DNA of 64,000 nt, from assembly GCA_002813895.1 (NCBI GenBank), contig CP024912.1, forward strand, positions 1,674,001-1,738,000. The letters run 5' to 3'. A program made the translations under genes and the position numbers. Below are positions 27,553-45,716 of the stretch, one piece after another. The stretch is from Cyanobacterium sp. HL-69 (GTDB lineage Bacteria > Cyanobacteriota > Cyanobacteriia > Cyanobacteriales > Cyanobacteriaceae). The notes under the pieces are model-generated. The model was not told the DNA's origin and searched no databases. It saw nothing but the letters and a program-made list of their open reading frames with translations. Numbering within the stretch: position 1 is the stretch's first letter; each line of letters opens with the position of its first letter.

Positions 27553-30051
27553 CTAAGTTAACATTTCACTGCCAATTAATTTTTTATAACGCCTTGCTAA
27601 TTCATTTTTTAAACTAGAATCGTCCTCCATATACTTATCTTGTAACAGAATCTTTTCCGCCGCATCCCTTGCCAATACTAACACCTCTTGATCTTCTACT
27701 AAACTAGCAAGGGCAAAGTCTGGTAAACCCGATTGACGAGAGCCTAAAACCTCCCCCGGCCCCCTCAACCTTAAATCCATCTCCGAGATAAAAAAGCCAT
27801 CCTGAGACTGTTCCAACACTTTTAACCGTTGTAACCCATCGGGGGATTTACTACCGCTGATGAGTAAACAATGGGATTTGTGACTGCCACGGCCTACCCT
27901 ACCCCGTAACTGGTGAAGTTGGGATAACCCAAAACGTTCGGCATTTTCGATGAGCATAACGGTGGCATTGGGTACGTCAACCCCTACCTCGATGACGGTG
28001 GTGGAGACAATTATCTGAGTTTCGTTATCCCGAAAAGCGGTGAGGGCAGCTTCCTTTTCCTCGGAGGACATTCGCCCATGGAGTAAGCCCACATTGAAGT
28101 TAGTGAAGATTTTCTCGCTAAATTTTTGATGTTCGACTACCGCTGCTTTGACATCGAGTTTTTCTGATTCTTCAATCATGGGAAAGATAACATAAGCCTG
28201 TCTCCCTTGGGCTACTTCCCTTTTGATTAACTCATAGGCCTGGGTGCGCTGTTTTCCTGCTAAGACTGAGGTTTGAATGGGTTGACGCCCGGGGGGTAGC
28301 TCATCAATTTGACTTACGTCTAAGTCACCGTGGAGGGTGAGGGCGAGGGTACGGGGAATGGGGGTGGCTGTCATGGTAAGGACATGGGGGGCTTTGCCTT
28401 TGGCTAACAGACGGGCGCGTTGTTGTACCCCGAAGCGATGCTGTTCGTCGATTACCACTAAACCGAGATTACGGAATTTGACAGGATCTTGAATTAGGGC
28501 ATGAGTGCCGATTAAAAGGGGCAATTCTCCGCTTTGCAGTTGGGAATGGATTTCCCTCCGTTTGGCGGTTTTGGTTGATCCTGTGAGCAATTCTACGGGC
28601 AAATGGAGTAGGTTAAACCACTGTACTATCTTGCGGTAATGTTGTTCTGCTAATACTTCCGTGGGCGCCATGAGGGCGGCTTGATACCCCGATTGGAGGG
28701 CGGCAAGGATGGCAAATACGGCGACGATGGTTTTTCCTGAGCCCACATCTCCTTGCACTAGGCGATTCATGGGGGAGGATGATTCTAAGTCGGTTTCGAT
28801 TTCGTTGATTACCCTTTGTTGGGCATCGGTTAGCTGGAAGGGGAGTAATTGGTTAAATTCTTCAATGAGTTTTCCTTGGGGGATGAAGGGGGAGGCTTGG
28901 CGGTTTTGCCTATCTTGTTTTCTCCTTTCTAAAAAGCCTAGTTGCAGGTAGAAAAATTCATCAAAGATTAGTCTTCTTCTGGCTTCTGTCAGTTGTTTTT
29001 GGTTGTCTGGATAATGGATATGGGCGATCGCCTTTTGCAGATTAACTAAGCTATACCGTCTTTTAAGATTAACAGGTAGAGGATCATCAATTTCCGAAAG
29101 AGTTGGTAAACACTCCACCACCGCCTTACGAATCAAATCCGCTGCCACTCCTTCCGTGAGAGGATATACAGGTAATAACCGACCAATTTTCAGAGAATTG
29201 ATACTGCCTCCCCCAGAGTCCAAAACCTCAAACTCAGGATTATCAAGGGTAATGCCATACTTGTTTTGCTTCACCAATCCAGAAGCCGCAATCAATGCCC
29301 CCATGGCATAAGAGCGTTTCATCTTCTCCTGCCATCCCCTACTACTAAAATAATTTCCCGCAAAAAAACGACTGATTTTTAAGTCTCCTGTCTTATCCCG
29401 AATAACAAGACTCAGAATAGTTAATTTTTTATTTTTAGGACTACTAAAACAAGAACATTTTTTCACCGTACCAATCACGGTAACTGTTTCCCCTGCCTCC
29501 AAATCCTTAATGGCAATCTTATTACCATAATCAATATGTTCCCGAGGATAATAAAATAAAACATCCCTAACTCTATAAATACCAAGTTTTTCTAACAACT
29601 TATTTTGCCGATTATTAACACATTTCAAGTTAATAACAGGACTATCTAAAGTAATCTTCTCAACAGTTTCTTTCACCTTGGAAGTAACAGCAACAGTTTC
29701 CACCTTAGAGGGAAAAGGTATTATATTATCCTCTTTAATAGCCCCTTTCCTTTTAGCTTCTTCCTTTTGTTTTTCCTTTACTTCATCAATAAATCCTTCC
29801 ACATAAGCAATCAAATCTTTTTTTTCTTGTAAAGTTAACTGAGGATATTCCGTAAACTCCTTGGCTACCTTTTGCCACTTAAAAGCAATCATTAAATTTA
29901 ACACAGGGGGAATGCCCCCAAAACTAAGACAGAGAAATTCATGGAAACGATATTGATTCCCCTGTAAGTTTTGATAGCCATATTCTTTTTCTACCGACAA
30001 CGCCTTTTCAATTCTCTCCCAGTCAGGGGATTTTCTGCCCTCTCCACTCAT
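27553..30051 (-). CDS. recG: ATP-dependent DNA helicase RecG
   Basis: An 832-residue branch-migration helicase that remodels stalled forks and Holliday junctions. A cyanobacterial-type N-terminal extension of about 130 residues precedes the wedge/OB region (about 140-290). Helicase motifs are GDVGSGKT (434-441), DEQH (535-538), TATPIPRTLALTLHGDLDVSQIDE and QLRGRVGRG. The C-terminus carries FISEMDLRLRGPGEVLGSRQSGLPDF. It converges with the penicillin-binding-protein gene. Confidence 0.97.
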   Translation of the reverse strand: MSGEGRKSPDWERIEKALSVEKEYGYQNLQGNQYRFHEFLCLSFGGIPPVLNLMIAFKWQKVAKEFTEYPQLTLQEKKDLIAYVEGFIDEVKEKQKEEAKRKGAIKEDNIIPFPSKVETVAVTSKVKETVEKITLDSPVINLKCVNNRQNKLLEKLGIYRVRDVLFYYPREHIDYGNKIAIKDLEAGETVTVIGTVKKCSCFSSPKNKKLTILSLVIRDKTGDLKISRFFAGNYFSSRGWQEKMKRSYAMGALIAASGLVKQNKYGITLDNPEFEVLDSGGGSINSLKIGRLLPVYPLTEGVAADLIRKAVVECLPTLSEIDDPLPVNLKRRYSLVNLQKAIAHIHYPDNQKQLTEARRRLIFDEFFYLQLGFLERRKQDRQNRQASPFIPQGKLIEEFNQLLPFQLTDAQQRVINEIETDLESSSPMNRLVQGDVGSGKTIVAVFAILAALQSGYQAALMAPTEVLAEQHYRKIVQWFNLLHLPVELLTGSTKTAKRREIHSQLQSGELPLLIGTHALIQDPVKFRNLGLVVIDEQHRFGVQQRARLLAKGKAPHVLTMTATPIPRTLALTLHGDLDVSQIDELPPGRQPIQTSVLAGKQRTQAYELIKREVAQGRQAYVIFPMIEESEKLDVKAAVVEHQKFSEKIFTNFNVGLLHGRMSSEEKEAALTAFRDNETQIIVSTTVIEVGVDVPNATVMLIENAERFGLSQLHQLRGRVGRGSHKSHCLLISGSKSPDGLQRLKVLEQSQDGFFISEMDLRLRGPGEVLGSRQSGLPDFALASLVEDQEVLVLARDAAEKILLQDKYMEDDSSLKNELARRYKKLIGSEMLT

Positions 30052-30342
30052 TACGATTCCCTAGTCTCAACCCGAAACTTTACGTTTTCTAGGATAACTG
30101 ATTGTTGCGTTAGAAAAATCATCAAGCATTTAAATAGTAATTTATTAGAGTTGGTGTTCAATATTTAATTATTAGTGCGATCGCCCTTACTAAAACAGTA
30201 TTCTTTTAAGCTGAAATACTACGTAATCTGCCACACTGCATGAACTTATTTTTGATCAAACAAAAAAATTGTAAGGAAAAATGGCTGTTTCGTTTTTTTG
30301 AAGATCGGCTACTATATGTTTATTGATATTGCCGAAATTCCC

Positions 30343-31332
30343 ATGGAAAAATTAGGAATCTATACTTTAGCTAACGATGTGGTCTTTGATCAACTTGTTG
30401 CCTTATTGAATAGTATCGAAAAAAATGTTAGTCCCGATATTCCAATATGTGTTATTCCTTTTGATAACAATCTTGAGAAGGTAAAACAGGAAATACAATC
30501 AAGAGATAATGTCAATCTATTTGATAACCAAGAATCCATAAGGCGCTGGGAAAATTTTGCCACCGAAATATGGTCAAAACATCCAAAAGCAAATCACACT
30601 AAGCAGTTTTGGGGAAAAGGACATCATCACCGTTTCGCTGCCTTTGATGGGGCGTTTGATAAGTTTGTTTTTTATGATGCTGACAGCTTGGCGATGAAAC
30701 CGTTGAATAAGATGTTTGACAAGTTAAATAATTATGACTTTGTCTTTGATGATTGGGAACATCGTAAACCTATAGAAACATCGGCTTTAAATATACCCTT
30801 AATTGAAAAAACTGGTATTTTTAACGAGGATCAAATTAGACCTAAATTACATTGTTCTAGTTTATTCGGCTCGAAAAAAGGAATTTTCAATGAGGAGGAA
30901 TTATCGAAACTCAAATATCGATTAATTAATGATAAAGAAATTACTTGGATTCCCCGTTGGTGGGATGATGCTTTTTTGTTCAATTATTTAACTCTAAGGT
31001 GCGATCGCCCTTTATACAATTTTACATTAAGTGAAGATGCCCAAGATCGCACGGGTAACTGTGCTGATGCTGATCCTTTTGTCAATGTGGATAATGTGTT
31101 GTACAACGAGCAGGGGTTAAAACCTATCCATCGTATTCATTATATGAATTATTCTTCCGCAGACTTTGCTCGTTTAACGCAGGGATATGATACGAATATT
31201 CGTTATCAAGAAGAATTTTTATACTATCGTTTTTTGAAAAATCCTGAACAAAAACCAAAGGAGTTAAAGAAACGTAGCCTATGGCAAAAAGTAGCAAACA
31301 AAGTAAATTTAATAAAGAAAAAATTTGCTTGA
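30343..31332 (+). CDS. Glycosyltransferase-like protein (Npun_R2821/R2822-type)
   Basis: About 330 residues from ATG 30343; a TTG at 30298 and an ATG at 30316 are in frame upstream, but LGIYTLANDVVFDQLVALLNSIE is where family similarity begins. A GT-A style fold is suggested by VFYDADSLAMKPL (a DxD-type metal motif), FVFDDWEHRKP and the later PRWWDDAFLFNYLT. It probably transfers a sugar in surface-glycan synthesis. It is the first gene of the plus-strand island. Acceptor and donor are unknown. Confidence 0.8.
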   Translation: MEKLGIYTLANDVVFDQLVALLNSIEKNVSPDIPICVIPFDNNLEKVKQEIQSRDNVNLFDNQESIRRWENFATEIWSKHPKANHTKQFWGKGHHHRFAAFDGAFDKFVFYDADSLAMKPLNKMFDKLNNYDFVFDDWEHRKPIETSALNIPLIEKTGIFNEDQIRPKLHCSSLFGSKKGIFNEEELSKLKYRLINDKEITWIPRWWDDAFLFNYLTLRCDRPLYNFTLSEDAQDRTGNCADADPFVNVDNVLYNEQGLKPIHRIHYMNYSSADFARLTQGYDTNIRYQEEFLYYRFLKNPEQKPKELKKRSLWQKVANKVNLIKKKFA

Positions 31333-31453
31333 ATAAATAACTATACAAAAAAGTTAATATAATGGGTATTAATTAATTTTCTAAAAATTTAAATCTTAAA
31401 CAATAACTCTACAAACATAAACAATTATTTACTTTAGAATAGGTATTCTCAAC

Positions 31454-32878
31454 ATGAAACAATTAATTATCGGGATAGATGGAGGAGATCAAGACATTTT
31501 TTCTCAAGTTTCCATGCCTCATCTACATCAATTATTTAAAGATTGTTATACCCTGAAATTGACAGAAGACTTATTAAGTAGAGGTTGGGCAGAAATACTG
31601 TCAGGGAAATATGCCCGTGAGACAGGGGCTTTCTATATGAAACCCAAATTAGATAAAACTCATGATTTGATCTTACGCTTTAGTTTAAAAGATTTGCTAA
31701 ATAATCCTGAAGTTCTTCCAATTTGGGCAATACCAGCTAAACAGAATAAAAAAGTTGGCATGATGAATGTCCCCACCACATTTCCCGCACAACCAGTAGA
31801 AGGTTTCTTTGTATCTGGTGCAGGGGGAGGCGTTAACAAGGTAGAAGGAATACCAGAAGATTTATGTTATCCCAATTCATTAGCCAAAGAATTAGAAGAA
31901 TTAGGTTATGTCATTGATATTCGGGTTGGAACTGCCGGAATCAAAGATATTCAACTATTATTTGATAAGGTCAATGAGATGCAAGAAAAACGAGTAGAAG
32001 CATTTATTCGTCTGTGCAAGAAACAGCAACCCGACTTTGGCTTTATTGCCACAAGAGCTACAACTGATATACAGTATCTAGCTATGAGTGAACTCCAGTC
32101 TTATTTTGCTTATCGACGTGGTGAACTTACAGATGAAGAAGCAAATAAACACGCTATCTGGTTCGAAAATTTTGAGAAGCACTACAACCTCTTGGATCAG
32201 CTACTTAAACGGTTAATTGAAGAACTGAGTCCTGAACACTTTATTATCACGTCAGATCATGGAGCCGTACCTTATAAATATAAAGCTAACTTTAATGCTT
32301 TTTTACAAAATTATGGCTATCAACAAGAAAAATTAGTAATCAAAGGGACGTTAAATTCTCTAATTAACTCCTTCAGACGCAAAAAGTCTTTTCAACCAGT
32401 TTACAGAACACAATGGGAGAAAACGAAAGCCTTTACTGGTTGGTATGATCCCAGAATTTTTATTAATGATTCTCGTCGCTTCAATGGTCCTGTGAAGGAA
32501 GATGAAATTGACCAAATGGTAGCTCAAATTTGTGGTGACTTTAATAAAACGCCAGAAGCCAAAGAATACTATATGGAGGCTAAACCTTATCGTAAATTGT
32601 ATCCTGATGCTAAATATAACCACTATTTACCTGATATTAAAATTCACTGTCCTACGACAATTTTTCCCGCTCCTGATGAAGGACCCTTCATAAGACCAAA
32701 TGAAGATTATGCTCCATTACCAAACTTAGATAATGTCAAAGGGGGAATGCACTCAGGCCAAAAAGGAGAACATCCACTTTTTTGTTGCGATCGAAAGACT
32801 GCGACCCTGATACAGGAAGAAGATATTAGAGATTTAACTTTAATTTATAAATTGACAGAACGCATATTTAATTCATAG
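31454..32878 (+). CDS. Alkaline-phosphatase-superfamily phosphodiesterase/phosphatase-like protein
   Basis: A 474-residue protein opening LIIGIDGGDQDIF, with the first metal-binding Asp, and carrying the later metal motif FIITSDHGAVPY. Ser or Thr in LLSRGWAEILSGKYARETG is the likely nucleophile. This is the type I phosphodiesterase/nucleotide-pyrophosphatase branch of the superfamily. There is no signal peptide, so it appears cytoplasmic. Within a glycan island it might hydrolyse a phosphate or sulfate ester, or move a phospho-group; the actual role is unknown. The next gene starts 9 bp after its stop. Confidence 0.85.
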   Translation: MKQLIIGIDGGDQDIFSQVSMPHLHQLFKDCYTLKLTEDLLSRGWAEILSGKYARETGAFYMKPKLDKTHDLILRFSLKDLLNNPEVLPIWAIPAKQNKKVGMMNVPTTFPAQPVEGFFVSGAGGGVNKVEGIPEDLCYPNSLAKELEELGYVIDIRVGTAGIKDIQLLFDKVNEMQEKRVEAFIRLCKKQQPDFGFIATRATTDIQYLAMSELQSYFAYRRGELTDEEANKHAIWFENFEKHYNLLDQLLKRLIEELSPEHFIITSDHGAVPYKYKANFNAFLQNYGYQQEKLVIKGTLNSLINSFRRKKSFQPVYRTQWEKTKAFTGWYDPRIFINDSRRFNGPVKEDEIDQMVAQICGDFNKTPEAKEYYMEAKPYRKLYPDAKYNHYLPDIKIHCPTTIFPAPDEGPFIRPNEDYAPLPNLDNVKGGMHSGQKGEHPLFCCDRKTATLIQEEDIRDLTLIYKLTERIFNS

Positions 32879-32887
32879 AGAGTAAAA

Positions 32888-33706
32888 ATGATTTTGAAAA
32901 CTTATATTATTTGTTTCGTAGGAAGAAGTGGAAGTACTTTATTAGCTCGAAGTTTAGCTGAGTTGGGCTACGTCGGTAATCCTATTGAATTTTTTCATTG
33001 GAGGAGAATTCCTCAATTAGCAAAGAGTGATTCTCAAATCTTCAAAGATTATCTTGATGAAATTAGAAACCAAGGAACAACTTCTAATGGCGTTTGTGGA
33101 ATTAAGCTCCAGTGGGGACAATTGCAAACCTTGACGAGTATGGCACGGACACATTTATCTTTAAATGGAAAAAAAGACGTAGAAATAATCTCTCTACTAT
33201 TTCCCAACCCCTATTACATATACATTGAAAGGAATAATTTATTAAAACAAGCAATATCTTTGGAACTTGCTCAACAAACAGGAGTTTTTACCAAATTCTC
33301 GGATACAAATTCTAAACAAATAGAAACATCACTTAGTCAACAACTGTCTAATAATCAGTTGTTGATTTTTAAACCTTTAAATATATTTAATCATAAAAAA
33401 AATATTAATATTACAAATCAAAAATGGCAAAATTTTTTTGAATTAGAAGACATAAATTATTATAAAGTTGTCTATGAAGATTTCTCTCAATCAATACCAC
33501 AAACAATTATTAATGTAATTAAATTTCTAGAGATTGAACCTTTACCATCTGAAGATCAAATTAAAATCCCACTTAAGCGATTATCTAACGAAATTAATGA
33601 TCAATGGTTTAAATACTATAATTATATTCCTGAAATTTTCCTTAAGTTGGGTGATTTAATAAACAAAAAATTTGGAAGCATAGCTAAAAAATTAATAAGA
33701 AGATAA
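32888..33706 (+). CDS. Stf0-type sulfotransferase
   Basis: A 272-residue PAPS-dependent sulfotransferase-like protein. The N-terminal TYIICFVGRSGSTLLARSLAELGYVGNP carries the 5'-phosphosulfate-binding loop (GRSGST). PIEFFH and GVCGIKLQWGQLQTL are typical of the Stf0 family that sulfates trehalose and other sugars. The C-terminus is Lys-rich and AT-biased. It lies 9 bp after the phosphodiesterase-like gene, which suggests shared transcription. A small-sugar or glycan acceptor is likely. Confidence 0.83.
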   Translation: MILKTYIICFVGRSGSTLLARSLAELGYVGNPIEFFHWRRIPQLAKSDSQIFKDYLDEIRNQGTTSNGVCGIKLQWGQLQTLTSMARTHLSLNGKKDVEIISLLFPNPYYIYIERNNLLKQAISLELAQQTGVFTKFSDTNSKQIETSLSQQLSNNQLLIFKPLNIFNHKKNINITNQKWQNFFELEDINYYKVVYEDFSQSIPQTIINVIKFLEIEPLPSEDQIKIPLKRLSNEINDQWFKYYNYIPEIFLKLGDLINKKFGSIAKKLIRR

Positions 33707-33775
33707 ACAAGCGTAAGAAAAATTATTAAAATTTAAAATAAAGACTTTGTATCAAAAAATAAACAAAATTTTACC

Positions 33776-34954
33776 GTGAAAATTGGAATTATTACATATC
33801 ACTTTTTATATAATTTCGGTGCCAATTTGCAAATCTTGGCAACTATCAAATATTTAGAGAAACTTGGTCATCAAGTATGTGTGCTTAATTATCGCCCCCC
33901 TGAATTAGTAGAAAAATATCGAAAAACCGTTGCATCAATACAAGCTGAAGCACATCAACAATTTTGCGATTTATATTTGCCAGAATCACCCGTTTGCGAA
34001 AATCAAGAAGCTCTTATTAAATTTGCCACTGAAGCCAAATTTGATGTAATTATTTCAGGAAGTGATGCTGTATTAAGACTATGGCAAAAAAATGTTCGAG
34101 AAGATACGAGATTTCCGAATCCTTTTTGGTTAACTTGGACAGAACAAGTTGGGGTAAAACGAAAGGGAGTTTTAGCAGCTAGTAGTATGGGTACCAATTA
34201 TTTAACTTTTCCCAAAGAGGTAAGAAGTGGTATTAGAGAAGCTCTCAAGAAAATGAACTATATAACTATTAGAGATAGGTGGACAAAAACGTTACTTTCT
34301 CTCATTAGTTACAATCAATATTCCCTGAAACTTTGTCCAGACCCTGTAATAATGTTAAATGAAGTTTTTGCTATCCCCGAACAATATTCTCAAGAAGCAG
34401 TTGCAAAAAGAAAGGAATATATTCTATTAAGCATCTATAAAGATACCGTGTCGAAGCAGTGGATTAAAGATTTTATTGAAACCGCTCATAACAAAGGACT
34501 TGAAGTGTATAGTCTACCTCTACCTGAATATGAAGTACAGGGAAATTTTGATAAAATTATTGGATTTCCCCTATCACCTTTAGAGTGGTATGCTTGGATT
34601 CAGAATGCGGCAGCTTATGTCGGAGTTCGTTTTCATCCCATTGTTTGTGCTTTAACGAATCAAGTACCATTTGTGGCACTGGATCAGTATGAATGGGGTA
34701 TCAAAAGACGTAGAGATAGAATCTTAACTAAACCTTTAAGACCATTACTCCGTTTTTCGAGTAAAACTTATGACGTTTGTTGGAGTGCTAAGCTTACAAA
34801 ATATTGTTTAAATCCCGTTCAATATAATCAATTATCTCCAGCTCAGATATTAGATTTAGCAACCGAATCAATAAATTTGCAAAGCAATCAATCATTCATC
34901 GCAGACTCTCAAGAAAGTTTTATTAAAACGATCAATAAAATTTTACTAAGATAA
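33776..34954 (+). CDS. Polysaccharide pyruvyl transferase-family protein
   Basis: A 392-residue protein starting at GTG 33776 (KIGIITYHFLYNFGANLQILATIKYLEKLGH). The N-terminal Gly/Asn-rich turn and the internal FDVIISGSDAVLRLW, KLCPDPVIML and YVGVRFHPIVCALTNQVPFVALDQY match the CsaB/WcaK/EpsI pyruvyl-transferase family. These add ketal pyruvate from PEP to sugars; some relatives have other activities. It lies between two sulfotransferase genes, which suggests both anionic groups may be placed on the same glycan. Confidence 0.83.
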   Translation: MKIGIITYHFLYNFGANLQILATIKYLEKLGHQVCVLNYRPPELVEKYRKTVASIQAEAHQQFCDLYLPESPVCENQEALIKFATEAKFDVIISGSDAVLRLWQKNVREDTRFPNPFWLTWTEQVGVKRKGVLAASSMGTNYLTFPKEVRSGIREALKKMNYITIRDRWTKTLLSLISYNQYSLKLCPDPVIMLNEVFAIPEQYSQEAVAKRKEYILLSIYKDTVSKQWIKDFIETAHNKGLEVYSLPLPEYEVQGNFDKIIGFPLSPLEWYAWIQNAAAYVGVRFHPIVCALTNQVPFVALDQYEWGIKRRRDRILTKPLRPLLRFSSKTYDVCWSAKLTKYCLNPVQYNQLSPAQILDLATESINLQSNQSFIADSQESFIKTINKILLR

Positions 34955-34970
34955 CCAACAAAATTAATTC

Positions 34971-35660
34971 ATGTTAGTCAGTCATCGTTATAAATTCATT
35001 TACACCAAAACTGTCAAAACTGCAGGAACATCAGTTGAATCTTATTTTGAGCCTTATTGTATGAAAGAAGGTGAATGGTCTTTTGCTCACAGCCGAGACG
35101 AATATACTTCTGAAACAGGAATAATTGGTTATAGAGGAAATCAAATACCTGATGATTGTGTTTATTATAACCATATGCCAGCGCAGAAAATAAAAAATCT
35201 TTTGGGAGAAGATATTTGGAATTCTTATTTTAAGTTTTGTGTAGTTAGAAATCCTTTTTCTAAAGCTGCTTCTTATTATTATTTTCGAGGAAGAAAAGAG
35301 TTACTTACTGGCAAAAAAGGGCTTTTAAAAAGACTTTTATATCCTACGGAAAAACTTAAATTTTTAGAGTATTTGAAAAAAATTAAGCCCGTTATAGACA
35401 GAGATAAATATTTAATTAATGATAAATTTTGTTTGGATGATGTGATCTATCAAGAGGAATTGAATAGAGATATAGAAAGAATTTGTCATAAACTTTCAAT
35501 TCCTTTTGAACCTAAAAGAATACAGTTTTTAAAAAAAGAAGAGAAACAAAAAAAATTAAGTTTGCAGGAACTTTATTCATATGAAGCCAAGGCAATTATT
35601 AAACAAGTATATGCTTTTGAGTTAGACTATTTTAACTATTCATTTCCTCATAATAAATGA
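34971..35660 (+). CDS. Sulfotransferase family 2-like protein
   Basis: A 229-residue protein beginning MLVSHRYKFIYTKTVKTAGTSVESYF. KTVKTAGTS is the PAPS 5'-phosphosulfate loop of carbohydrate sulfotransferases, and FCVVRNPFSKAASYYYFR is the 3'-phosphate motif. YNHMPAQKIKNLL is also family-like. It differs from the Stf0 and family 3 proteins nearby. It starts 16 bp after the pyruvyl-transferase gene and ends 18 bp before a glycosyltransferase. Confidence 0.85.
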   Translation: MLVSHRYKFIYTKTVKTAGTSVESYFEPYCMKEGEWSFAHSRDEYTSETGIIGYRGNQIPDDCVYYNHMPAQKIKNLLGEDIWNSYFKFCVVRNPFSKAASYYYFRGRKELLTGKKGLLKRLLYPTEKLKFLEYLKKIKPVIDRDKYLINDKFCLDDVIYQEELNRDIERICHKLSIPFEPKRIQFLKKEEKQKKLSLQELYSYEAKAIIKQVYAFELDYFNYSFPHNK

Positions 35661-35678
35661 TTACACAAAGTTTATGTT

Positions 35679-36593
35679 ATGAATAATCCTCTAGTTTCAG
35701 TAATGATAACCAGTTATAATCAAAAAGATATTTTACCTAGAGCCATAGATAGTGTGTTATCTCAAACTTACAAAAATCTTCAGATAGTTATTGCAGATGA
35801 TGGTTCTACTGACGCTTCACAGGATTTAATTAATCAATATTATCAAAGGTTTCCTGATCAAATTAAACCTATACTATCTCCCAAAAATCAAGGTATTCCT
35901 AAAAATAAAAATATGGGCTTTCGAGCCTGTGACGGGGATTTTATTACTTATTTGGATGGAGATGACTTCTACTATCCTGAGAAGATAGAACGAGAAATAA
36001 AAGTTTTTAAGTTAGAACCATCTTTCGGTGTTGTCTTTTCTAACTTTGCTTTTGTGAATCAAAACTGCTCAACTTCCAAATATTGGAAAAGAGAGGATAT
36101 TTTTGTACCCCAAGGAGATATTTTTATAGATGTTTTCTCTCGGAATTTTCCTTTTTGGACTCTTTACCGTAACGAGTTGATTAGAAAAGAACTTCTTGAA
36201 AAAATTAATTATTATGATGAAAATTTAATTGCCTATGAAGATTGGGATTCCAGAATTAGACTGAGTAAAATCGCTAAGATTGGCTATTCTGACTATGTTG
36301 GTGCAGCTTATGTTGATGATCCAAAAGGCATTTCCAAAACAGAAAAGCGCCAGCGTCTTCTTCAAGAGATGAGATACGTTATGACAAAAAATTCACGTCT
36401 ATTGAATGATTTAAAATTATTTGAGAAAATTAAAGTATTAAGAACATTAGAAATAGCAATTCTTGAGAGGGAAATTTCTTGTTCCCCATCTTTAGAGAAA
36501 TTATTTTTGACTTTTAAATATGTTGCTATTACTGGTAATTTAAAGTTTTTTCTGAATTTAATAAAACAAAAAATAAAGTCAATTATGGACTAA
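35679..36593 (+). CDS. GT2 family glycosyltransferase
   Basis: A 304-residue GT-A fold enzyme. The N-terminus PLVSVMITSYNQKDILPRAIDSVLSQTYKNLQIVIADDGSTD is classic GT2, with the nucleotide-binding Asp in ADDGSTD and the metal-binding DxD in ITYLDGDDFYYPEKIE. It has no membrane helix, so it acts at the cytosolic face. The sugar specificity is not deducible. It is part of the closely spaced plus-strand run. Confidence 0.9.
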   Translation: MNNPLVSVMITSYNQKDILPRAIDSVLSQTYKNLQIVIADDGSTDASQDLINQYYQRFPDQIKPILSPKNQGIPKNKNMGFRACDGDFITYLDGDDFYYPEKIEREIKVFKLEPSFGVVFSNFAFVNQNCSTSKYWKREDIFVPQGDIFIDVFSRNFPFWTLYRNELIRKELLEKINYYDENLIAYEDWDSRIRLSKIAKIGYSDYVGAAYVDDPKGISKTEKRQRLLQEMRYVMTKNSRLLNDLKLFEKIKVLRTLEIAILEREISCSPSLEKLFLTFKYVAITGNLKFFLNLIKQKIKSIMD

Positions 36594-36636
36594 TATTAAA
36601 TTGCAAAAGAATACAATAACAAGATTTTAGAAGAAA

Positions 36637-37650
36637 ATGTCATCAAATTTTGACGAAAAAAACTTAATTTTCCTGATTTCTCAGCCACGTGCTGGTTCAA
36701 CGATGCTGCAAAAAATTTTGGGTTCTCATCCCGAAATATACACAGTTTCTGAACCATGGCTATTACTTCATCCTGTTTATGCCTTAAGAGATAGTGGATA
36801 TGAGGCAGAATATGATGCCAAACTGGCAAAAACTGCCTTGGATAGTTTCTTAAACTTATTCCCTGATCAAAAACAAGTTTATTTAGAAACTATTTCTGAA
36901 GTTTATGGAAAACTGTATCAAAAAGCTTTAGATCAAACAGATAAAAAATATTTTCTTGACAAAACTCCGAGATACTATCATATTATTCCTGAACTAGCTA
37001 AAATTTTTCCCGAAGCAAAGTTTATTATCTTATTAAGAAATCCTCTTGCTGTTTTAAGTTCAATTATTAGCACTTGGATTGTTCCTCATCCAGATCGTTG
37101 GTTTTATCTTGAGAATCATAAAGATGATCTTTTTAAAGCTCCTGAATTACTGTTGCAAGGTATAAATTTGTTACAAGATAGATGTCTAGTTGTTCATTAT
37201 GAAAAGTTTTTAGAGAATCCCGATATTCAGACTAGATCAATTTGTGATAAGTTAAACATCCCTTTTCATCAAAAGATGTTGGTAAATGACAAAACTAATT
37301 CTGCTCAATGGATTTTTGGGGATAAAAAAGATCCTTATAAAACTTCTCAACCGAATGCTAAAAATATTGTTACTTGGCAAAATAACATTAACTCTCCTCA
37401 AATTTTAAAATCATTGAATGACTACTTAGATTTTCTTGGTGAGGAGATACTAACCAAAATGGGTTATTCATATCAAGAGTTATGGCAATCCCTACAAACC
37501 TATCATTCTGATTATCGTTTTTTATCGTGGACTACCTTGCCTTTAGAATATATAGTAAATAAACCGAAAACTTATACAAGTAATAAATATAGATTCTATA
37601 AAATAAAGCTAATTAATAAACTAGAGAAAAAAGGTATTTTAAATTTTTAA
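36637..37650 (+). CDS. Sulfotransferase family 3-like protein
   Basis: A 337-residue sulfotransferase. LIFLISQPRAGSTMLQKILGSHPEI carries the 5'-phosphosulfate loop (QPRAGST), and FIILLRNPLAVLSSIIS the 3'-phosphate motif. The middle holds KYFLDKTPRYYHIIPELAKIFP, typical of this family. It is the third distinct sulfotransferase within 5 kb. Some relatives sulfate glycans and others proteins. Confidence 0.87.
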   Translation: MSSNFDEKNLIFLISQPRAGSTMLQKILGSHPEIYTVSEPWLLLHPVYALRDSGYEAEYDAKLAKTALDSFLNLFPDQKQVYLETISEVYGKLYQKALDQTDKKYFLDKTPRYYHIIPELAKIFPEAKFIILLRNPLAVLSSIISTWIVPHPDRWFYLENHKDDLFKAPELLLQGINLLQDRCLVVHYEKFLENPDIQTRSICDKLNIPFHQKMLVNDKTNSAQWIFGDKKDPYKTSQPNAKNIVTWQNNINSPQILKSLNDYLDFLGEEILTKMGYSYQELWQSLQTYHSDYRFLSWTTLPLEYIVNKPKTYTSNKYRFYKIKLINKLEKKGILNF

Positions 37651-37748
37651 AAGAGTGATGATAAATATTTTTATTAACATTAATAAAAATTGCTCAAAAA
37701 GAACTATCAAGAAAATTAAACCGCAAATCAATTATTACAACAAAATTT

Positions 37749-38651
37749 ATGATGAACAGACAACAACTTCCTACAATATCTATTGTTACCCCTTCTTTTA
37801 ATCAAGGGAACTTCTTAGAAGCGACTATCGAAAGTATACTATCGCAGAAATATCCGAACCTAGAATACATTATCATAGATGGTGGTTCAACAGATGACAG
37901 TGTAGAGATAATTAAAAAATATGAAAAATATCTTCATTTCTGGTGTAGCGAACCGGACAAGGGACAATATGATGCTATTAACAAAGGATTTACCCATGCT
38001 AACGGTGAAATTATGGCTTGGCTGAATAGTGATGATATGTATTTTCCTTGGACATTAAAAACAGTGGGGAGTATCATGTCAGAATTACCAGAAGTGGAAT
38101 GGTTAACGACCTTTCTACCAGGAACATGGGATTATCAAGGATTTTCCAGAGGTTTTCAACGCATCAGTGGTTATTCAAAAAGTGCTTTTCTTGATGGTTG
38201 TTATCTTCCTATTCACAATTATTTTTTAGGATGGATACAACAAGAGTCAACGTTTTGGAGAAGAAGTTTATGGGAAAAAGCAGGAGGTTATATTTCTACA
38301 GATCTTGATCTAGCTAGTGATTTTGAATTGTGGTCAAGGTTTTTTTCTCAAGCTGAATTATATGGGACAATTTCGCCGTTAGGTGGATTTAGAAAACAAG
38401 CCAATCAAAAAACTTCTCAAATGACTAAATATATGAGTGAAGCAAAAAAATCATTAATAGAATATCAAGAATTATTCCATTGGCGACCAAATAAATTTCT
38501 TACCTTTTTACAAGAAAAAAAACTATATCGAATACCTAAGCTAAATAAAATTATTAAAGATAATTATGGTTATGTAGGGAAAAAAGTTATTAGAAAAGAT
38601 GAAAATTTATCCAGTGGTTATTGGCAAGTTCAAGAATATAAATTTATGTAG
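37749..38651 (+). CDS. GT2 family glycosyltransferase
   Basis: A 300-residue GT2 enzyme with PTISIVTPSFNQGNFLEATIESILSQ, YIIIDGGSTDDSVEIIKKY and the metal-binding turn IMAWLNSDDMYFPW. WIQQESTFWRRSLWEKAGG is the usual acceptor-side motif. It is related to the GT2 encoded at 39709-40620 (shared YIIIDGGSTD and WLNSDD blocks), though the two differ enough to use different substrates. The damaged GT4 gene starts 6 bp after its stop. Confidence 0.9.
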   Translation: MMNRQQLPTISIVTPSFNQGNFLEATIESILSQKYPNLEYIIIDGGSTDDSVEIIKKYEKYLHFWCSEPDKGQYDAINKGFTHANGEIMAWLNSDDMYFPWTLKTVGSIMSELPEVEWLTTFLPGTWDYQGFSRGFQRISGYSKSAFLDGCYLPIHNYFLGWIQQESTFWRRSLWEKAGGYISTDLDLASDFELWSRFFSQAELYGTISPLGGFRKQANQKTSQMTKYMSEAKKSLIEYQELFHWRPNKFLTFLQEKKLYRIPKLNKIIKDNYGYVGKKVIRKDENLSSGYWQVQEYKFM

Positions 38652-38657
38652 TTTTTT

Positions 38658-39575
38658 ATGAACATTTTACAAATCAATCAGTCTGATATTTATTCTTGGT
38701 GGTACTAGGACCGCATCTTATAGTTTACATCAAGGACTATTAGAGGCAAACATTGACTCGAAATTATTGGTCGGCAACGTCCAAAAAGAAGATAAATTAG
38801 TTCAAAAAGTTCCCCGTCAAGGAAAAATTGACACTCAACTATATCGAATTACCAGTAGGTTAGGGTTAAATTATATACATCTACTCAGTACCTACAATAT
38901 TCTCAAACATCCCTTTTATAAAGAAGCAGATGTCCTTAATTTTCATAACCTACATACAGGTTACTTTAACTATCTAGCTGTTTCTGCCTTCACCAAAAAT
39001 AAACCTGCCGTTTATACCCTCCATGATATGTGGAGTTTTACTGGACATTGTGCTTATAGTTACGACTGCAATAAATGGCAAACAGGTTGCGGAAAATGTC
39101 CCTATCCTGATACCTACCCAAAAATTAAACGAGACAATACCAAATGGGAATGGAAATTAAAAAATTGGGTTTATGAAAATTCTAACCTAACCATTGTCAC
39201 CCCTAGCAATTGGTTAGCTGAAGAAGCTAAAAAAAGTATGTTGAATCGCTTTAATGTTCAATGTATTCCCAATGGTATCAATACAAAAACTTATCGGCAT
39301 TGCTGATTTTGAGTATGATTGGTATTGAGTACGAGTCACTAAATTATTCAATGGCTGTTATTTATAATTGCTAGATTTTTATTCTCATACCTTGATTCAG
39401 CAACGCCTTGATAAAGAAAAATGCCGTCAAATTTTAGGAATACCCCAAGGCAAAAAAGTATTAATGTTTGCTGCACAGAGTCTCACAGAAACTCGTACTT
39501 TTAATAATGGGGTCTGGTGCTGGTAATTTTAGTAAAACCCTTGACATTGAAACTGTCAGTTTAGGTTACTTAATA
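38658..39575 (+). pseudogene. Decayed GT4 family glycosyltransferase
   Basis: Fragments of one GT4 enzyme lie in three frames. MNILQINQSDIYS (from 38658) shifts by +1 near 38697 into GGTRTASYSLHQGLLEANIDSK, which runs open through AVYTLHDMWSFTGHCAYS and NGINTKTY to a stop at about 39305. A 112-bp insertion follows. The frame then resumes as LDKEKCRQILGIPQGKKVLMFAAQSLTETR. Sequence coding GSGAGNFSKTLDIETVSLGY, which belongs further along a GT4 protein, joins almost directly, implying a deletion. The C-terminal catalytic half is missing. This gene is dead. Confidence 0.8.
39296..39407. mobile_element. 112-bp inverted-repeat (MITE-like) insertion
   Basis: The GT4 reading frame is interrupted by 112 bp bounded by imperfect inverted ends beginning GGCATTGCTGA on the left and, on the complementary strand, GGCGTTGCTGA on the right. 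Over 23 bp the two ends agree at about 17 positions. There is no coding capacity. The flanking sequence joins back to give a plausible GT4 protein, which supports an insertion. A target duplication could not be fixed. Confidence 0.55.
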
Positions 39576-39708
39576 TAATATCCTTTCGGTGGTCCCAATA
39601 CTTCGGAGCTAACGGGAAACTGTCTAATAATTCTCAATAGCAACTGACGAATTATTTGTTTTATACGGTTTATATTTTTTCTCATTATTGATCTCATAAA
39701 AGTTGATA

Positions 39709-40620
39709 TTATTTTGATAATAAATTTTTACATTTCAGAGCAAACATAAATAAATAAGAACTACTTAACCAATAAAATTTGGCGTATACCTTTTCCCATG
39801 AAGGTAAATTTTGCCAATGTTTATTAAAAACTGCCATATTTTCCTTGGCAAAACTACCCCAACCCTGACCAGATTTGCAATCAGAATGTAAACGAAAATA
39901 GGCAAATTCTTGGGGAATAAAGTGAAATTTATAATGACCATACAACATAACCCTTAACCAATAATCATAGTCCATAGACAAATTGAGTTCTTCATCTAGC
40001 AAACCTGTTTTTGTAAAAACTTCTTTATGCCAGAATGTTCCTTGTTGTGGAGGCATAACCGTTGGTAATCCTTTCATACCTGATTGCTGATGGAATAAGA
40101 GATTATAACGGGAAAATACGGGGGATAAGCCATGAAAAGTATTTATATTACTTAAAAACACCTTCCCAGTAACCACAAAGCGTTTTTTCTGAGGATTAAT
40201 TTCTTGAGCAACTCTGCTTAATACTCCCTGAAAATAATAATCATCAGAATTAAGCCAAGCAATTATATCACCAGTTGCTTTTTGAAAACCTTTGTTAATG
40301 CCATTACTTTGACCTCCATCTTTTTCACTTACCCAATAAGCCAACCATGGGGAATATTTTTTGATAATTTCCACAGAGTTATCGGTACTACCACCATCAA
40401 TGATAATATATTCAAGATTGGGATAACCTTGAAGTAACACTGAGCGGATGGTTTCCTCTAAGTATTCCCCTTGATTATAAGAAGGAGTCACAATAGTAAT
40501 TTTTGGCCAGTCACGACCATCCGGCATCTTATTCTCTACTGGAGGAGTTTCTTCCGTCCAAGGCCAACCCTGGTTATTTTCAGGTGGTGCGGGTAATACT
40601 GCTAATTTGGCGGTTAACAT
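39709..40620 (-). CDS. GT2 family glycosyltransferase
   Basis: A 303-residue GT2 enzyme with ITIVTPSYNQGEYLEETIRSVLLQ, YIIIDGGSTDNSVEIIKKY, GGQSNGINKGF and the DxD-type IIAWLNSDDYYFQG. The N-terminus carries about 40 Pro/Glu-rich residues ahead of the fold. It is the only minus-strand gene of the island and faces the remains of the GT4 gene. Its GC content seems a little higher than that of the plus-strand neighbours. Confidence 0.9.
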   Translation of the reverse strand: MLTAKLAVLPAPPENNQGWPWTEETPPVENKMPDGRDWPKITIVTPSYNQGEYLEETIRSVLLQGYPNLEYIIIDGGSTDNSVEIIKKYSPWLAYWVSEKDGGQSNGINKGFQKATGDIIAWLNSDDYYFQGVLSRVAQEINPQKKRFVVTGKVFLSNINTFHGLSPVFSRYNLLFHQQSGMKGLPTVMPPQQGTFWHKEVFTKTGLLDEELNLSMDYDYWLRVMLYGHYKFHFIPQEFAYFRLHSDCKSGQGWGSFAKENMAVFNKHWQNLPSWEKVYAKFYWLSSSYLFMFALKCKNLLSK

Positions 40621-40938
40621 CTTAATATTGCTTTGGTTCTATTGTTTATCAATTGATGGAATAGACTATGTATTTATAGAGAAAGATAATAGTGTTATCT
40701 ACACATACTCGATCAAATGATTGATTTACCGAATCCTATCATATATTTATAGGACTTAGATAAATACAATATTAAAGTTATTATCGGTTTTCCTTGCTCA
40801 CCCTAACTTCTTTCAGAGAGTAGCAAAAAAGATTTGTCGCTCAAATTGTGAAAAAATGTTGAGTATTATAAACTTTAATGACTAATATTGAGAGCGATCG
40901 CATCTATCCTTATGTAGAGAAATAGTGGGACCATTAAA
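40621..40938. other. Intergenic region, 318 bp, no gene seen
   Basis: AT-rich spacer between the GT2 gene and the SRP RNA gene. HIP1 reappears here (near 40895) after a gap of almost 10 kb. I see no ORF or clear terminator. Confidence 0.5.
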
Positions 40939-41195: not shown

Positions 41196-42593
41196 ATGAT
41201 AAAATCTACCCTTGAAAAAGCAAAAGCCCCTGTTGTTTTACCCGTGGGGGGTGAAGACGAAAATAATTTTAATTATCAAGAGGTTTGGTATCCTGTTTTT
41301 TTTGTGGAGGATTTGGATAAAAATATACCCAATTCTTTTACTCTTTTAGAAGAGGATATTGTGATTTGGTGGGAGGAAAAAACTACTCAATGGCGAGTGT
41401 TTGCGGACAAATGCCCCCATCGTTTAGCGCCTTTAACAGAGGGAAGAATTAATGAAGAGGGTTTGTTGGAATGCCCCTATCATGGTTGGGCTTTTTCTGG
41501 GGGAGGAGATTGTGAGGTGATACCCCAACAACAGGAAAATCAACGGGCGCATACCTCTTCTCGTGCCTGTGTGAGGTCTTATCCTTGTAAGATTGAGCAG
41601 GATTTATTGTTTGTGTATGCTGGTAATGCTAATAATGCGGATAAAACTCCTATACCCATAGTAGATCCTTTGGAGGAAGATAAGGATAAGTGGTTAGTGT
41701 TAAATACTTTTCGGGATATTCCTTATTCTGCCCTCACTTTATTGGAGAATGTTTTAGATTCTAGTCATATACCCTACACTCATCATGGTTCTGTAGGCGA
41801 TCGCACCAACGTTTCTACAGTAGAATTAGAAATTATCAGCAGTAATAGGCAAGGATTTAGAGGAGTATGGCAAGAAGGGCCAAGAAAAGGGAAACTAGGC
41901 ACCCAATACACTACCTTTGTCGCCCCCAATTTAATGTGGCATGACTTAACCTCCAAACAATTTGGACGCACCATGACGGTGGTTTATGCTACCCCCATTA
42001 GTAAAGGAAAATGTCGTTTATTTGCCCGTTTTCCCTTCCAATTTTCCTCTAAAATACCTCAATTTTTTATTAAGTTGACTCCCCGTTGGTATTCCCACCT
42101 GAATCAAAATGCGATTCTTGAAGATGATCAAATTTTCCTCCATTACCAAGAGCGATATTTAGAAAAATTAAGAGGTAGTGAAAAGTACGAAAAAGCCTGT
42201 TATTTGCCTACCAAAGCTGATTTATATGTAACAGAATTTAGACAGTGGATAAATAAATTTAATGCGGAGTTATTTCCCCATCAAACTTTACCCCCAACTC
42301 CTGCCCATGATGTGTTATTGGAGCGTTATCATTCCCACACAGAAAATTGTTCTAGTTGTCGTCAAGCCTTAAAATATATCAAAAAAATACGTCAAACTTT
42401 ATTAGTTTTTAGCGCCATTATTTGGTCACTAATTCCTTTGATAACCCTTAAAGTCGCTAGTATATCTCCATTAATTATTTATTCTATTGTCACAGTTAAT
42501 TTAATCAGCATTTTATTATACTTTTACTTAGGAAAAATTGAGCAAAAATTCTATCTAGGACAAACAATAGCTCCAAGAAATGTGAAAAAGTAA
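41196..42593 (+). CDS. Pheophorbide a oxygenase-like Rieske non-haem iron oxygenase
   Basis: A 465-residue protein with a Rieske [2Fe-2S] centre (C73-H75 in CPHRLAPL, C93-H96 in CPYHGWAF). The mononuclear iron region is ENVLDSSHIPYTHHGS (about 184-199). Toward the C-terminus comes HTENCSSCRQAL, the CxxC typical of the PaO/Tic55/PTC52 group, then two hydrophobic helices that could anchor it to thylakoids. Plant relatives open the chlorophyll ring or hydroxylate chlorophyll catabolites; the cyanobacterial substrate is uncertain. It is monocistronic. Confidence 0.88.
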   Translation: MIKSTLEKAKAPVVLPVGGEDENNFNYQEVWYPVFFVEDLDKNIPNSFTLLEEDIVIWWEEKTTQWRVFADKCPHRLAPLTEGRINEEGLLECPYHGWAFSGGGDCEVIPQQQENQRAHTSSRACVRSYPCKIEQDLLFVYAGNANNADKTPIPIVDPLEEDKDKWLVLNTFRDIPYSALTLLENVLDSSHIPYTHHGSVGDRTNVSTVELEIISSNRQGFRGVWQEGPRKGKLGTQYTTFVAPNLMWHDLTSKQFGRTMTVVYATPISKGKCRLFARFPFQFSSKIPQFFIKLTPRWYSHLNQNAILEDDQIFLHYQERYLEKLRGSEKYEKACYLPTKADLYVTEFRQWINKFNAELFPHQTLPPTPAHDVLLERYHSHTENCSSCRQALKYIKKIRQTLLVFSAIIWSLIPLITLKVASISPLIIYSIVTVNLISILLYFYLGKIEQKFYLGQTIAPRNVKK

Positions 42594-44195: not shown

Positions 44196-45716
44196 ATGAT
44201 TTTTAAGAATTTTACTTGGTGGGAGATTGGGGAATATATTAGCACTCTAATTTTATTAATTTTACTTATTATTAATAATCCTTGGCAGGGTAATTTTGTA
44301 GTTATATTTTTCGTTGCAGTTATTCTAATTCTTAATATAATTAATCGTAAATCATTAGAGTACAGAAACAAAAAAAGAATAGCAGCTGCTCTTAATATTC
44401 AACTAAAAAGATTCTCAGAACAAATTGCAGAAGTTAGTAATAGAGTTAATATTTTAGGTAGTAAAATATCCGTCAATCAGCCGCCCTTATCTAGTTCAAA
44501 AATGGGGTTATCAGAAAATGAAGTAATTGCCTCTTTGCAAAAAGACATCGCCACCATTAATCAGTCGGTGACAAGTATGATTGATTATGTAAATAAAAGT
44601 GACTTACTAGAAAGAGTAGCTATCATTGAACAAAAATTACCCTATATCGATGCTTCAAATTATAGTGGTAGTGCAAAAAATGACGATGGCATAAAGTTAC
44701 CTAGTCCTGAAATTATTCATCAAAAGTTACCAGAATATAATTATGATTCACCTCCTCGACTTGCTTGGAAATGTATTCATGTTATGGAAGCCCATAGTCA
44801 ATCAGTTACTGATGTAAGTGTCACCTTTGATAAAAAATATTTAGTTAGTGTTTCTTGGGATCAATATTTAAAATTATGGTCTTTGGAAGATGGTTTAGAA
44901 GTAGATGCAATTCAAGGCTCTGAACAGGGTTTATTAGCGGTATCGACCCACCAAACTAACTATTTAAATCATGGTATAGCCACAGGAAGTTTAGATCAAG
45001 ACGTTAAAATTTGGTCTTTGGAAAAAAAGGGAAAAAAAGAATTAAAATTTAAGTTAGAACATACTTTAACCGAGCATACAGGTTCAATTCATGGCTTAGA
45101 AATTGCTCCAGAAAATAACTGTTTAATTAGTGGTAGTTATGACCAAACTTTGAAAAAATGGGATTTAATAAAAGGGGATTTAATTGATAGTTGTTATGAT
45201 GATAATGGGGCTATAAATGCGATCGCCCTTAATGATAAAATCGGTATCATGGTAAGCGGTGGTGGAGATGGTACTATTTCTGTGTGGGAAATCAACAGTA
45301 ATCGTAAACTAGCGGTTTTGGTGGATAACTTAATATCCTTAGAATCCATCGCCATTAGTACATCAGGGGAATATGTGGCGGCAGGTTGTGCCAATGGAGA
45401 CATCAAAATTTGGTATCTACCCCCTTCCATTTTTAGCCTTTTCCAAGAAGTTTCCCCCTCCCTCCAACTCCAAGGGCATCATGGGCAAGTGATGGATTTA
45501 GCTTTTCATCCCGATGACCAATTATTATATACTGTGGGAGTAGATGGGCTTTTGAAAATTTGGTACTGTGCCACTGGTAAGGAATTAGGACATCTAAAAA
45601 TTAGCGAAGATAATCGCATTTTTTCCCTTGCCCTCAGTGATGACGGAGAAATTTTGGTGGCAGGAGGAGTTGATGGTACTATCAAAATTTGGCAACAAAC
45701 TAAAACAATTAACTAG
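44196..45716 (+). CDS. Membrane-anchored coiled-coil WD40 repeat protein
   Basis: A 506-residue protein. Two hydrophobic segments at about 12-30 and 34-50 anchor it, and residues about 55-155 are helical or coiled coil. About seven WD40 blades follow from about residue 190 (HSQSVTDVSVTFDKKYLVSVSWDQYLKLW, HTGSIHGLEIAPENNCLISGSYDQTLKKW, and HHGQVMDLAFHPDDQLLYTVG near the end). It would form a cytosolic propeller for protein assembly at a membrane. Its position 10 bp after mgtE hints at a link to the transporter, but this is inference. Confidence 0.87.
   Translation: MIFKNFTWWEIGEYISTLILLILLIINNPWQGNFVVIFFVAVILILNIINRKSLEYRNKKRIAAALNIQLKRFSEQIAEVSNRVNILGSKISVNQPPLSSSKMGLSENEVIASLQKDIATINQSVTSMIDYVNKSDLLERVAIIEQKLPYIDASNYSGSAKNDDGIKLPSPEIIHQKLPEYNYDSPPRLAWKCIHVMEAHSQSVTDVSVTFDKKYLVSVSWDQYLKLWSLEDGLEVDAIQGSEQGLLAVSTHQTNYLNHGIATGSLDQDVKIWSLEKKGKKELKFKLEHTLTEHTGSIHGLEIAPENNCLISGSYDQTLKKWDLIKGDLIDSCYDDNGAINAIALNDKIGIMVSGGGDGTISVWEINSNRKLAVLVDNLISLESIAISTSGEYVAAGCANGDIKIWYLPPSIFSLFQEVSPSLQLQGHHGQVMDLAFHPDDQLLYTVGVDGLLKIWYCATGKELGHLKISEDNRIFSLALSDDGEILVAGGVDGTIKIWQQTKTIN

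Follow-up and report, generated by a model that had tools for sequence, protein, structure and literature searches.

The DNA analysed here, hereafter referred to as the window, is a 64 kb stretch of the chromosome of Cyanobacterium sp. HL-69 (contig C1 of genome G000, positions 1674001–1738000). The strain originates from Hot Lake, a lake dominated by magnesium sulfate, and its genome consists of a chromosome of 3,155,247 bp, with a mean G+C content of 37.8%, and two plasmids of 86,432 and 55,266 bp (PMC5805888); the assembly used here comprises 3,296,945 bases in 3 contigs. Positions 30343–40620 of the window (the island) hold nine intact open reading frames (ORFs) and one broken ORF, and include three sulfotransferases of different families set among glycosyltransferase genes. 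Comparison with related genomes indicates that the island is more plausibly one allele of a variable locus for a cell-surface glycan than a self-contained pathway, and that the 7.4-kb cassette at its core was probably acquired horizontally.

Two relatives served for comparison at this interval: a genome taken as that of C. stanieri PCC 7202 (G003, locus L102), whose size is 3,163,381 bp (PMC5805888), and a second one (G004, locus L103). The features of the locus are listed below in the order in which they lie, with family scores given in bits against the curated cut-off.

27553–30051, minus strand: gene that I take to be a recG-like helicase; conserved left flank of the variable locus, 95% identical in both G003 and G004, and in the same interval in L102 and L103.
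30343–31332, plus strand: Npun_R2821/Npun_R2822 family protein (Npun; NF045582, 396.2 bits, cut-off 250); part of the frame shared with C. stanieri.
31278–38712, no strand: HL-69 cassette, 7,435 bp, to which the C. stanieri allele shows no DNA homology in this position.
31454–32878, plus strand: alkaline phosphatase (AP)-superfamily protein (Phosphodiest PF01663, 55.4 bits, cut-off 23), apparently with altered active-site positions.
32888–33706, plus strand: Stf0-type sulfotransferase (PF09037, 120.9 bits, cut-off 22); aligns to 1tex, motifs kept.
33776–34954, plus strand: PF04230 "polysaccharide pyruvyl transferase" family protein (PS_pyruv_trans, 107.6 bits, cut-off 25.3); not CsaB by score.
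34971–35660, plus strand: ST2, Sulfotransfer_2-type sulfotransferase (PF03567, 25.2 bits, cut-off 22, a marginal match).
35679–36593, plus strand: GT2a, GT2 glycosyltransferase (PF00535, 113.1 bits).
36637–37650, plus strand: ST3, Sulfotransfer_3-type sulfotransferase (PF13469, 106 bits, cut-off 27); aligns to 4gox.
37749–38651, plus strand: GT2b, GT2 glycosyltransferase (PF00535, 85.8 bits).
About 38658–39573, plus strand: GT4 glycosyltransferase pseudogene, with an early stop and out-of-frame pieces; intact at 405 amino acids in the C. stanieri allele (L102:12234–13451).
39296–39407, no strand: dispersed repeat of about 112 bp, resembling a miniature inverted-repeat transposable element (MITE); inside the GT4 gene and absent from the C. 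stanieri allele.
39709–40620, minus strand: GT2c, GT2 glycosyltransferase (PF00535, 101.6 bits), 93% identical in G003; part of the shared frame.
41196–42593, plus strand: Rieske-type oxygenase, so named by eye, forming the conserved right flank; identity 90% in L102 and 89% in L103.

The window contains 51 ORFs of at least 120 amino acids, 30 of which (the 10 of the island and 20 others) were scanned against protein families. An earlier reading of the window, made from the DNA letters alone (hereafter the sequence-only reading), had listed the genes of the island; all of those it named are present in their places, with family matches above the curated cut-offs, and the GT4 pseudogene between GT2b and the minus-strand GT2c is to be added. 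The Npun protein is likely a GT-A type transferase, judging from a DxD motif identified by eye. From the AP gene through GT2b the intergenic gaps measure 9, 69, 16, 18, 43 and 98 bp, and 121 bp separate the Npun gene from the AP gene. One or a few transcripts had been proposed, which the short gaps and the packing of the cassette genes in a single direction would fit. Scans for promoter-like sites (49 against 50.2 expected) and terminator-like sites (4 against 5.3 expected) were at chance level, and a single transcript is therefore suggested by the spacing alone.

In G003, the interval between recG and the Rieske gene holds the Npun gene (87% identical), an FkbM-type methyltransferase, a PF04230 protein, an intact GT4 gene (94% identical to the window GT4 fragment), GT2c, a further ORF and an epimerase. 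The flanks and frame (recG, Npun, GT4 fragment, GT2c and Rieske) are thus 87–95% identical between the two alleles. Both also have a PF04230 protein, but that of the window does not match that of G003 at E 1e-5. Nucleotide alignment (blastn) places the boundaries of the differing part: homology runs from 30310 to 31277, through the Npun gene, stops, and resumes at 38713, inside the GT4 gene. The middle thus delimited is 7,435 bp in HL-69 against about 2.3 kb in G003, where it consists of the methyltransferase and the different PF04230 protein, with no sulfotransferase recognised at the locus; the G003 epimerase and the further ORF are without counterpart in the window. G004 has the flanks seen in the window and an epimerase as in G003 (by the start of its sequence), but otherwise other genes, including a GT2 and murB.

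A wider DNA search with positions 30300–40640 as the query covered 40 genomes, HL-69 included, with at most seven first-look candidates scored per genome, so that weaker matches may have been missed. The Npun, GT4 and GT2c parts were matched in several relatives, and in four other genera (G008, G017, G027, G032) GT4 matches and GT2c-like matches sit a short distance apart, GT2c being inverted relative to the window. The cassette gave only short matches in the 39 other genomes, mostly of GT2 type and the longest being 274 bp at 69%; two are in ST2 (73 bp in G013 and 263 bp at 66% in G031), and there are a few others. The cassette has a G+C fraction of 0.313, whereas none of 185 overlapping segments of equal length from the rest of the 64 kb falls below 0.347. 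I read the cassette as a probable horizontal acquisition. Away from the island, the WD40-repeat gene at 44196–45716 was probably frameshifted in G003, since its match there splits over two overlapping shorter ORFs (L102:4123–5642).

All three sulfotransferases look catalytically competent, with the motifs for both the 5' and 3' phosphates of 3'-phosphoadenosine 5'-phosphosulfate (PAPS) kept; I take the motif stretches described here to be those that bind these phosphates. In the alignment of Stf0 with 1tex, a solved structure of the Stf0 family, both RSGST and the R...S motif further on are retained; among its homologues RSGST is found in 5 of 6 (L140 has Asn) and R...QA.S in all 6. The structural matches of ST3 are a polyketide synthase sulfotransferase domain (4gox) and tyrosine sulfotransferases, and its motifs PR.GST and RNP....S occur in both of its homologues. 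For ST2 a sequence search of the PDB gave only a chance-level match. Its RNP...S motif is present in 9/9 homologues and the KT..TS core of its first motif in 8 of these 9; L106 and L107 have another residue in place of the Gly, and L115 differs more. The sequence-only reading had offered to give way if PAPS-binding residues were absent; since the motifs are intact in all three alignments, it does not fall on that ground.

Substrates are less readily assigned. Stf0 shares the Pfam Stf0 family and the PAPS motifs with trehalose 2-sulfotransferase (NF047724), but with 90.8 bits it stays under the equivalog cut-off of 400. Similarly, ST3 scores 96.4 bits against the nodulation sulfotransferase NoeE (NF052394), where the equivalog cut-off is 500. 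NoeE sulfates a lipo-oligosaccharide.

The PF04230 protein scores 34.6 bits against the CsaB model (TIGR03609), well short of the equivalog cut-off of 213.1. The pyruvyl transferase of the sequence-only reading is upheld as a member of the PF04230 superfamily, but pyruvate transfer is not established because the protein fails this cut-off. Its proposed cytosolic phosphodiesterase fares likewise, being supported as to family (PF01663) but not as to hydrolysis. I aligned the AP protein to 8 homologues, at 19–22% identity over the aligned columns; this alignment is weak, and shifts of one residue are possible. I take the columns considered to be the nucleophile and the metal-binding Asp and His residues of the AP superfamily. 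In this alignment the nucleophile column holds Leu, where 7/8 homologues have Thr or Ser, with a Ser one residue on. In the D-x-x-x-H motif, His (8/8 homologues) appears replaced by Tyr, with no His nearby, and Asp (6/8) by Thr, with an Asp one residue on. The C-terminal His column (8/8) would be Gln, with a His three positions earlier. The DHG motif seems to keep its DH, and the N-terminal Asp also seems to be retained. Phosphodiester hydrolysis is unsupported because the nucleophile position and two metal-binding His positions appear changed, and the protein may be inactive or do something else. PDB sequence searches with the AP and PF04230 proteins returned nothing at E ≤ 0.1, and a single-sequence structure model of the AP protein was uninformative (mean predicted local distance difference test score, pLDDT, of 32.7).

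The GT4 gene of HL-69 matches the G003 DNA at 91%, in pieces. Relative to G003 it carries an early frameshift, an insertion at about 39296–39407 and two deletions, and to judge from these lesions the gene is dead. The insertion is the repeat of about 112 bp, for which full copies at 95% and 94% are found on contig C3 of HL-69, with short matches on C1 and C2. Among the relatives, a 91% copy is found in G001 and seven copies at 72–78% in G002, with others in G014 and G034. Its ends form imperfect inverted repeats (17/25 positions, the best of 900 placements tried), and by sequence it can be described as MITE-like.

I then considered whether the island genes travel together, as the sequence-only reading had proposed to check; counts of genomes include HL-69 itself unless "other" is stated. 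The AP gene has matches in 4 of 388 genomes at E ≤ 1e-6 (3 others, at 23–26% identity) and in 6 of 60 relatives at E ≤ 1e-3 (5 others, at 24–30%). It was also matched in 19 plasmid records, from haloarchaea by name (22.6–29.0%), with no relative in close-relative scans of the species-genome collection or of viral contigs, scans which may omit records of HL-69 or of near genomes. At E ≤ 1e-10 the PF04230 protein is found in 3/358 genomes (2 others, at 30%) and Stf0 in 13/358 (12 others, at 27–40%). I fetched the regions of seven of these 12 Stf0 matches; no ORF for the Stf0 gene could be recovered in L142, and in L136 another sulfotransferase match, a weak one, lies 7.8 kb from the Stf0 relative. 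ST2 is found in 46/388 genomes at E ≤ 1e-5, and 11 regions (L105–L115) were fetched from the 45 other genomes. At least two separate sulfotransferase genes are present in three of these 11 (L111, L114 and L115); L112 has three sulfotransferase pieces, two of which are parts of one broken ST2, the status of the third being unverified. ST3 has one relative in the species-genome scan (39%) and matches in 26 plasmid records (best 49%), and neither ST3 nor ST2 has a match in phage records at E ≤ 1e-5. The Npun family is far more common (159/388 genomes, 148 of them over the cut-off); among the 30 loci returned it forms a tandem pair in 27, with no other island gene within about 1.5 kb in any. The whole set was not found elsewhere in the genomes sampled, and its parts occur in different company. 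The proposed co-occurrence therefore largely fails for the set in these genomes, but the GT2a-ST3 pair does recur, and clusters with several sulfotransferases are present in other cyanobacteria.

HL-69 has further sulfotransferase genes elsewhere on its chromosome. At about 827–836 kb (L051:1194–9824) a 2876-residue protein combines AMP-binding, ACP, ketosynthase, acyltransferase, KR, Sulfotransfer_3 and alpha/beta hydrolase domains, a set that I take to be that of olefin synthases, where the sulfotransferase presumably has a different role. Two Sulfotransfer_1/3 genes on opposite strands, at about 2394.6–2396.5 kb (L048:10635–12507), lie near a partial Npun_R2821 copy at 2391825 and near transposase-like fragments identified by eye. 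A Sulfotransfer_3 match over the cut-off, at about 2045.3–2046.2 kb (L050:8277–9191), has as its divergent neighbour a 247-residue protein with no family match at the thresholds used, and glycosyltransferase-like by eye.

The sequence-only reading had pointed out the lack of an exporter, and the family scan agrees: no polysaccharide exporter was recognised among the 10 island ORFs or the 20 other window ORFs, and the only ABC pair among all 30 lies at 1030–2909, with a FecCD permease. Elsewhere in the genome there is one outer membrane polysaccharide export (OPX) protein (PF02563), in a locus at 290.5–296 kb of the chromosome contig (L117:6513–11961). It adjoins a tyrosine-autokinase protein resembling a polysaccharide co-polymerase (PCP), which scores under the curated cut-offs; directly beside these genes are cyanoexosortase B (392 bits, cut-off 300) and its associated protein (193.4 bits, cut-off 65). 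The OPX and PCP-like genes occupy 290.5–294 kb of it. Two Wzy_C proteins are encoded elsewhere in the genome, at 553 and 885 kb. The OPX/PCP-like/cyanoexosortase B locus is a candidate for the exopolysaccharide export system of HL-69, and export of a cassette product in trans is possible.

Taking these results together, I lean towards a role of the cassette in the sulfation and elongation of a lipid-linked oligosaccharide that is exported in trans, and consider this reading the probable one. The Npun-type transferase, GT4 and GT2c form a frame between recG and the Rieske gene that C. stanieri has as well, and its middle in HL-69 is a different cassette of 7.4 kb. The cassette enzymes would act in the cytoplasm on the lipid-linked oligosaccharide, with GT2a and GT2b adding sugars, the three PAPS-dependent sulfotransferases O-sulfating different positions, and the PF04230 protein perhaps adding one more group. 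Flipping, polymerisation and export of the product would be left to machinery encoded elsewhere, for example the Wzy_C proteins and, next to cyanoexosortase B, the OPX and PCP pair. The gene families, the PAPS motifs, the boundaries of the cassette, the GT4 pseudogene and the OPX, PCP-like and Wzy_C genes at other places are seen in the data; the acceptor, the order of steps, the export in trans and the sulfated product are what I infer.

Several observations weigh against this proposal. Besides the missing exporter, no polymerase or priming enzyme was recognised in the island by the family scan. The nearest relatives of two of the sulfotransferases are not in glycan clusters within the fetched stretches; those around the Stf0 relatives L136–L141 contain no other island gene by blastp, and neither do those around the four nearest other ST2 relatives (L105–L108, 46–53% identical), each of which is the sole sulfotransferase found in its stretch of 6 to 20 kb. 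The closest ST3 relative found (49%) lies on a plasmid of Planktothrix agardhii NIES-204 (L145, AP017992.1), among genes annotated as amidinotransferase, carbamoyltransferase, sterol desaturase-like, dioxygenase and ABC transporter, which looks like a natural-product or small-molecule cluster. The altered active site predicted for the AP protein is a further difficulty, and the locus may be decaying, because the neighbouring GT4 gene is dead. Finally, no glycan chemistry for HL-69 is given in the genome paper (PMC5805888), nor in the available parts of three others (PMC8205485, PMC3985010, PMC13125312).

The main rival builds on some of the same facts. The target of the sulfotransferases would be no polymer but a secondary metabolite or small glycolipid; two or three glycosyltransferases would suffice to build such a sulfated glycoside of low molecular weight, and it would need no Wzx/Wzy export. 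The absence of an exporter from the scanned ORFs, the company kept by the ST3 relative in L145, the mostly solitary ST2 and Stf0 relatives, and the match of ST3 to NoeE, though under its cut-off, all fit such a product. On the other hand, the sister genomes hold glycosyltransferases at the locus, and multi-family sulfotransferase sets elsewhere accompany Wzy, Wzx-like or ABC export genes; I consider the small-molecule product rather unlikely. It is decidedly improbable, in my view, that the island is decaying debris of a cassette exchange and makes no product. The GT4 pseudogene with its MITE-like insert and two deletions, the departures of the AP protein from its homologues, and the loss of two genes that the sister allele has, the epimerase and the additional ORF, could be taken in this sense, but the seven cassette ORFs are intact and separated by short gaps, the sulfotransferases keep their PAPS motifs, and the broken GT4 belongs to the old frame rather than to the cassette. 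A self-contained, undescribed pathway for a sulfated and pyruvylated glycan, as the sequence-only reading had it, accords with the dense co-directional packing and the three sulfotransferase families but is very improbable, given that the gene set is not found together in the genomes sampled, that no exporter was recognised, that the CsaB cut-off is missed and that AP positions appear altered. What stands of that proposal is a set of apparently competent sulfotransferases with comparable clusters elsewhere; it does not stand as a self-contained or co-occurring unit, nor for pyruvate transfer and phosphodiester hydrolysis.

Sulfation of a lipid-linked oligosaccharide exported in trans therefore remains the reading that I favour. 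A bolder form of it, distinctly unlikely as a whole, is that a transferable sulfation module re-programmed an older glycan locus: through it a lineage that inhabits magnesium sulfate brine would have gained a multiply sulfated surface polymer, the old glycan would be switched off (GT4 broken, with the MITE-like element inside), and the AP-fold protein, its active site altered, would take part in the modification without hydrolysing anything.

Little is known of how bacteria make sulfated polysaccharides, and the locus offers a contrast of alleles within one genus, between HL-69, from its magnesium sulfate lake and with three sulfotransferases, and a soda-lake sister with none recognised at the locus. 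The freshwater strain IPPAS B-1200, with an average nucleotide identity of 95.8% to HL-69 (PMC5805888), would allow a further comparison of alleles, if obtainable. No description of this allele was found in the titles and abstract beginnings of the papers listed by searches on the strain, the lake, and sulfotransferase or polysaccharide clusters, and a literature search on Npun_R2821 found nothing; the Hot Lake consortia paper treats other cyanobacteria, with nothing on this locus in the part available (PMC3985010). The kind of system is already known, and what is new is its arrangement here.

Fuller clusters are found in several of the regions compared. In a Nitrospira japonica metagenome-assembled genome (L135, DYJL01000020.1), ABC2_membrane and Wzt genes accompany three genes over a sulfotransferase cut-off and a run of GT2-ST3-GT2. 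The first GT2 of this run is the best match of GT2a among the fetched loci (3e-44; next 8e-23), and the cluster shares with the island the GT2a-ST3 pair, its order unchanged and a GT2 coming after it; it differs in that the pair lies within an ABC-type cluster, where two more genes also exceed a sulfotransferase cut-off. I also considered GT2a-ST3-GT2b as a conserved triple, but GT2b matches the C. stanieri GT2c best, and therefore only the GT2a-ST3 pair is kept as specific. This glycosyltransferase-sulfotransferase pair recurs across phyla, and the Nitrospira cluster hints at sulfated glycans outside cyanobacteria and marine bacteria. In L114 the type 3 cut-off is passed by two genes and missed by another, and these lie together with a type 2 gene and with Wzy_C, Polysacc_synt_3 (Wzx-like) and GT4 genes; L115 has sulfotransferases of types 1, 4 and 2 together, with an ABC transporter (by blastp) and a PCP-like protein (by eye) in the region. 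A plasmid of Sagittula stellata E-37 (NZ_CP155733.1) carries four annotated sulfotransferases in an exopolysaccharide cluster; like the island it places several annotated types among glycosyltransferases, including relatives of ST3 (28%) and ST2 (33%, partial), but its genes also include those for a tyrosine autokinase, a sugar transferase, an O-antigen ligase and an ABC transporter, and no AP protein or pyruvyl transferase is annotated in the stretch seen. A Pseudosulfitobacter plasmid has several sulfotransferases with sugar-nucleotide genes.

Among characterised systems, the nearest counterpart is the xss (synechan) cluster of Synechocystis sp. PCC 6803, presented as the first elucidated cyanobacterial system in the available part of a paper according to which cyanobacteria generally pair Wzx/Wzy or ABC pathways with sulfotransferases (PMC13125312). 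Maeda et al. report, in the part of their article available, that the sulfotransferase genes of cyanobacteria are mostly part of clusters of this kind, which are partial to a greater or lesser degree, and that high-salinity species mostly make sulfated polysaccharides (PMC8205485). The xss cluster has Wzx, Wzy, PCP, regulators and two sulfotransferases (same part of PMC8205485), whereas the HL-69 island is without export genes and has three sulfotransferases together with the PF04230 and AP proteins. Judged as a system of this kind, the island thus has the sulfotransferases with several glycosyltransferases, and lacks an in-cluster Wzx/Wzy/PCP set or ABC exporter. From that same part of the article, the likeness is twofold: both combine glycosyltransferases with sulfotransferases of distinct subfamilies, and in the synechan system, as in HL-69, the OPX gene lies away from the cluster (PMC8205485).

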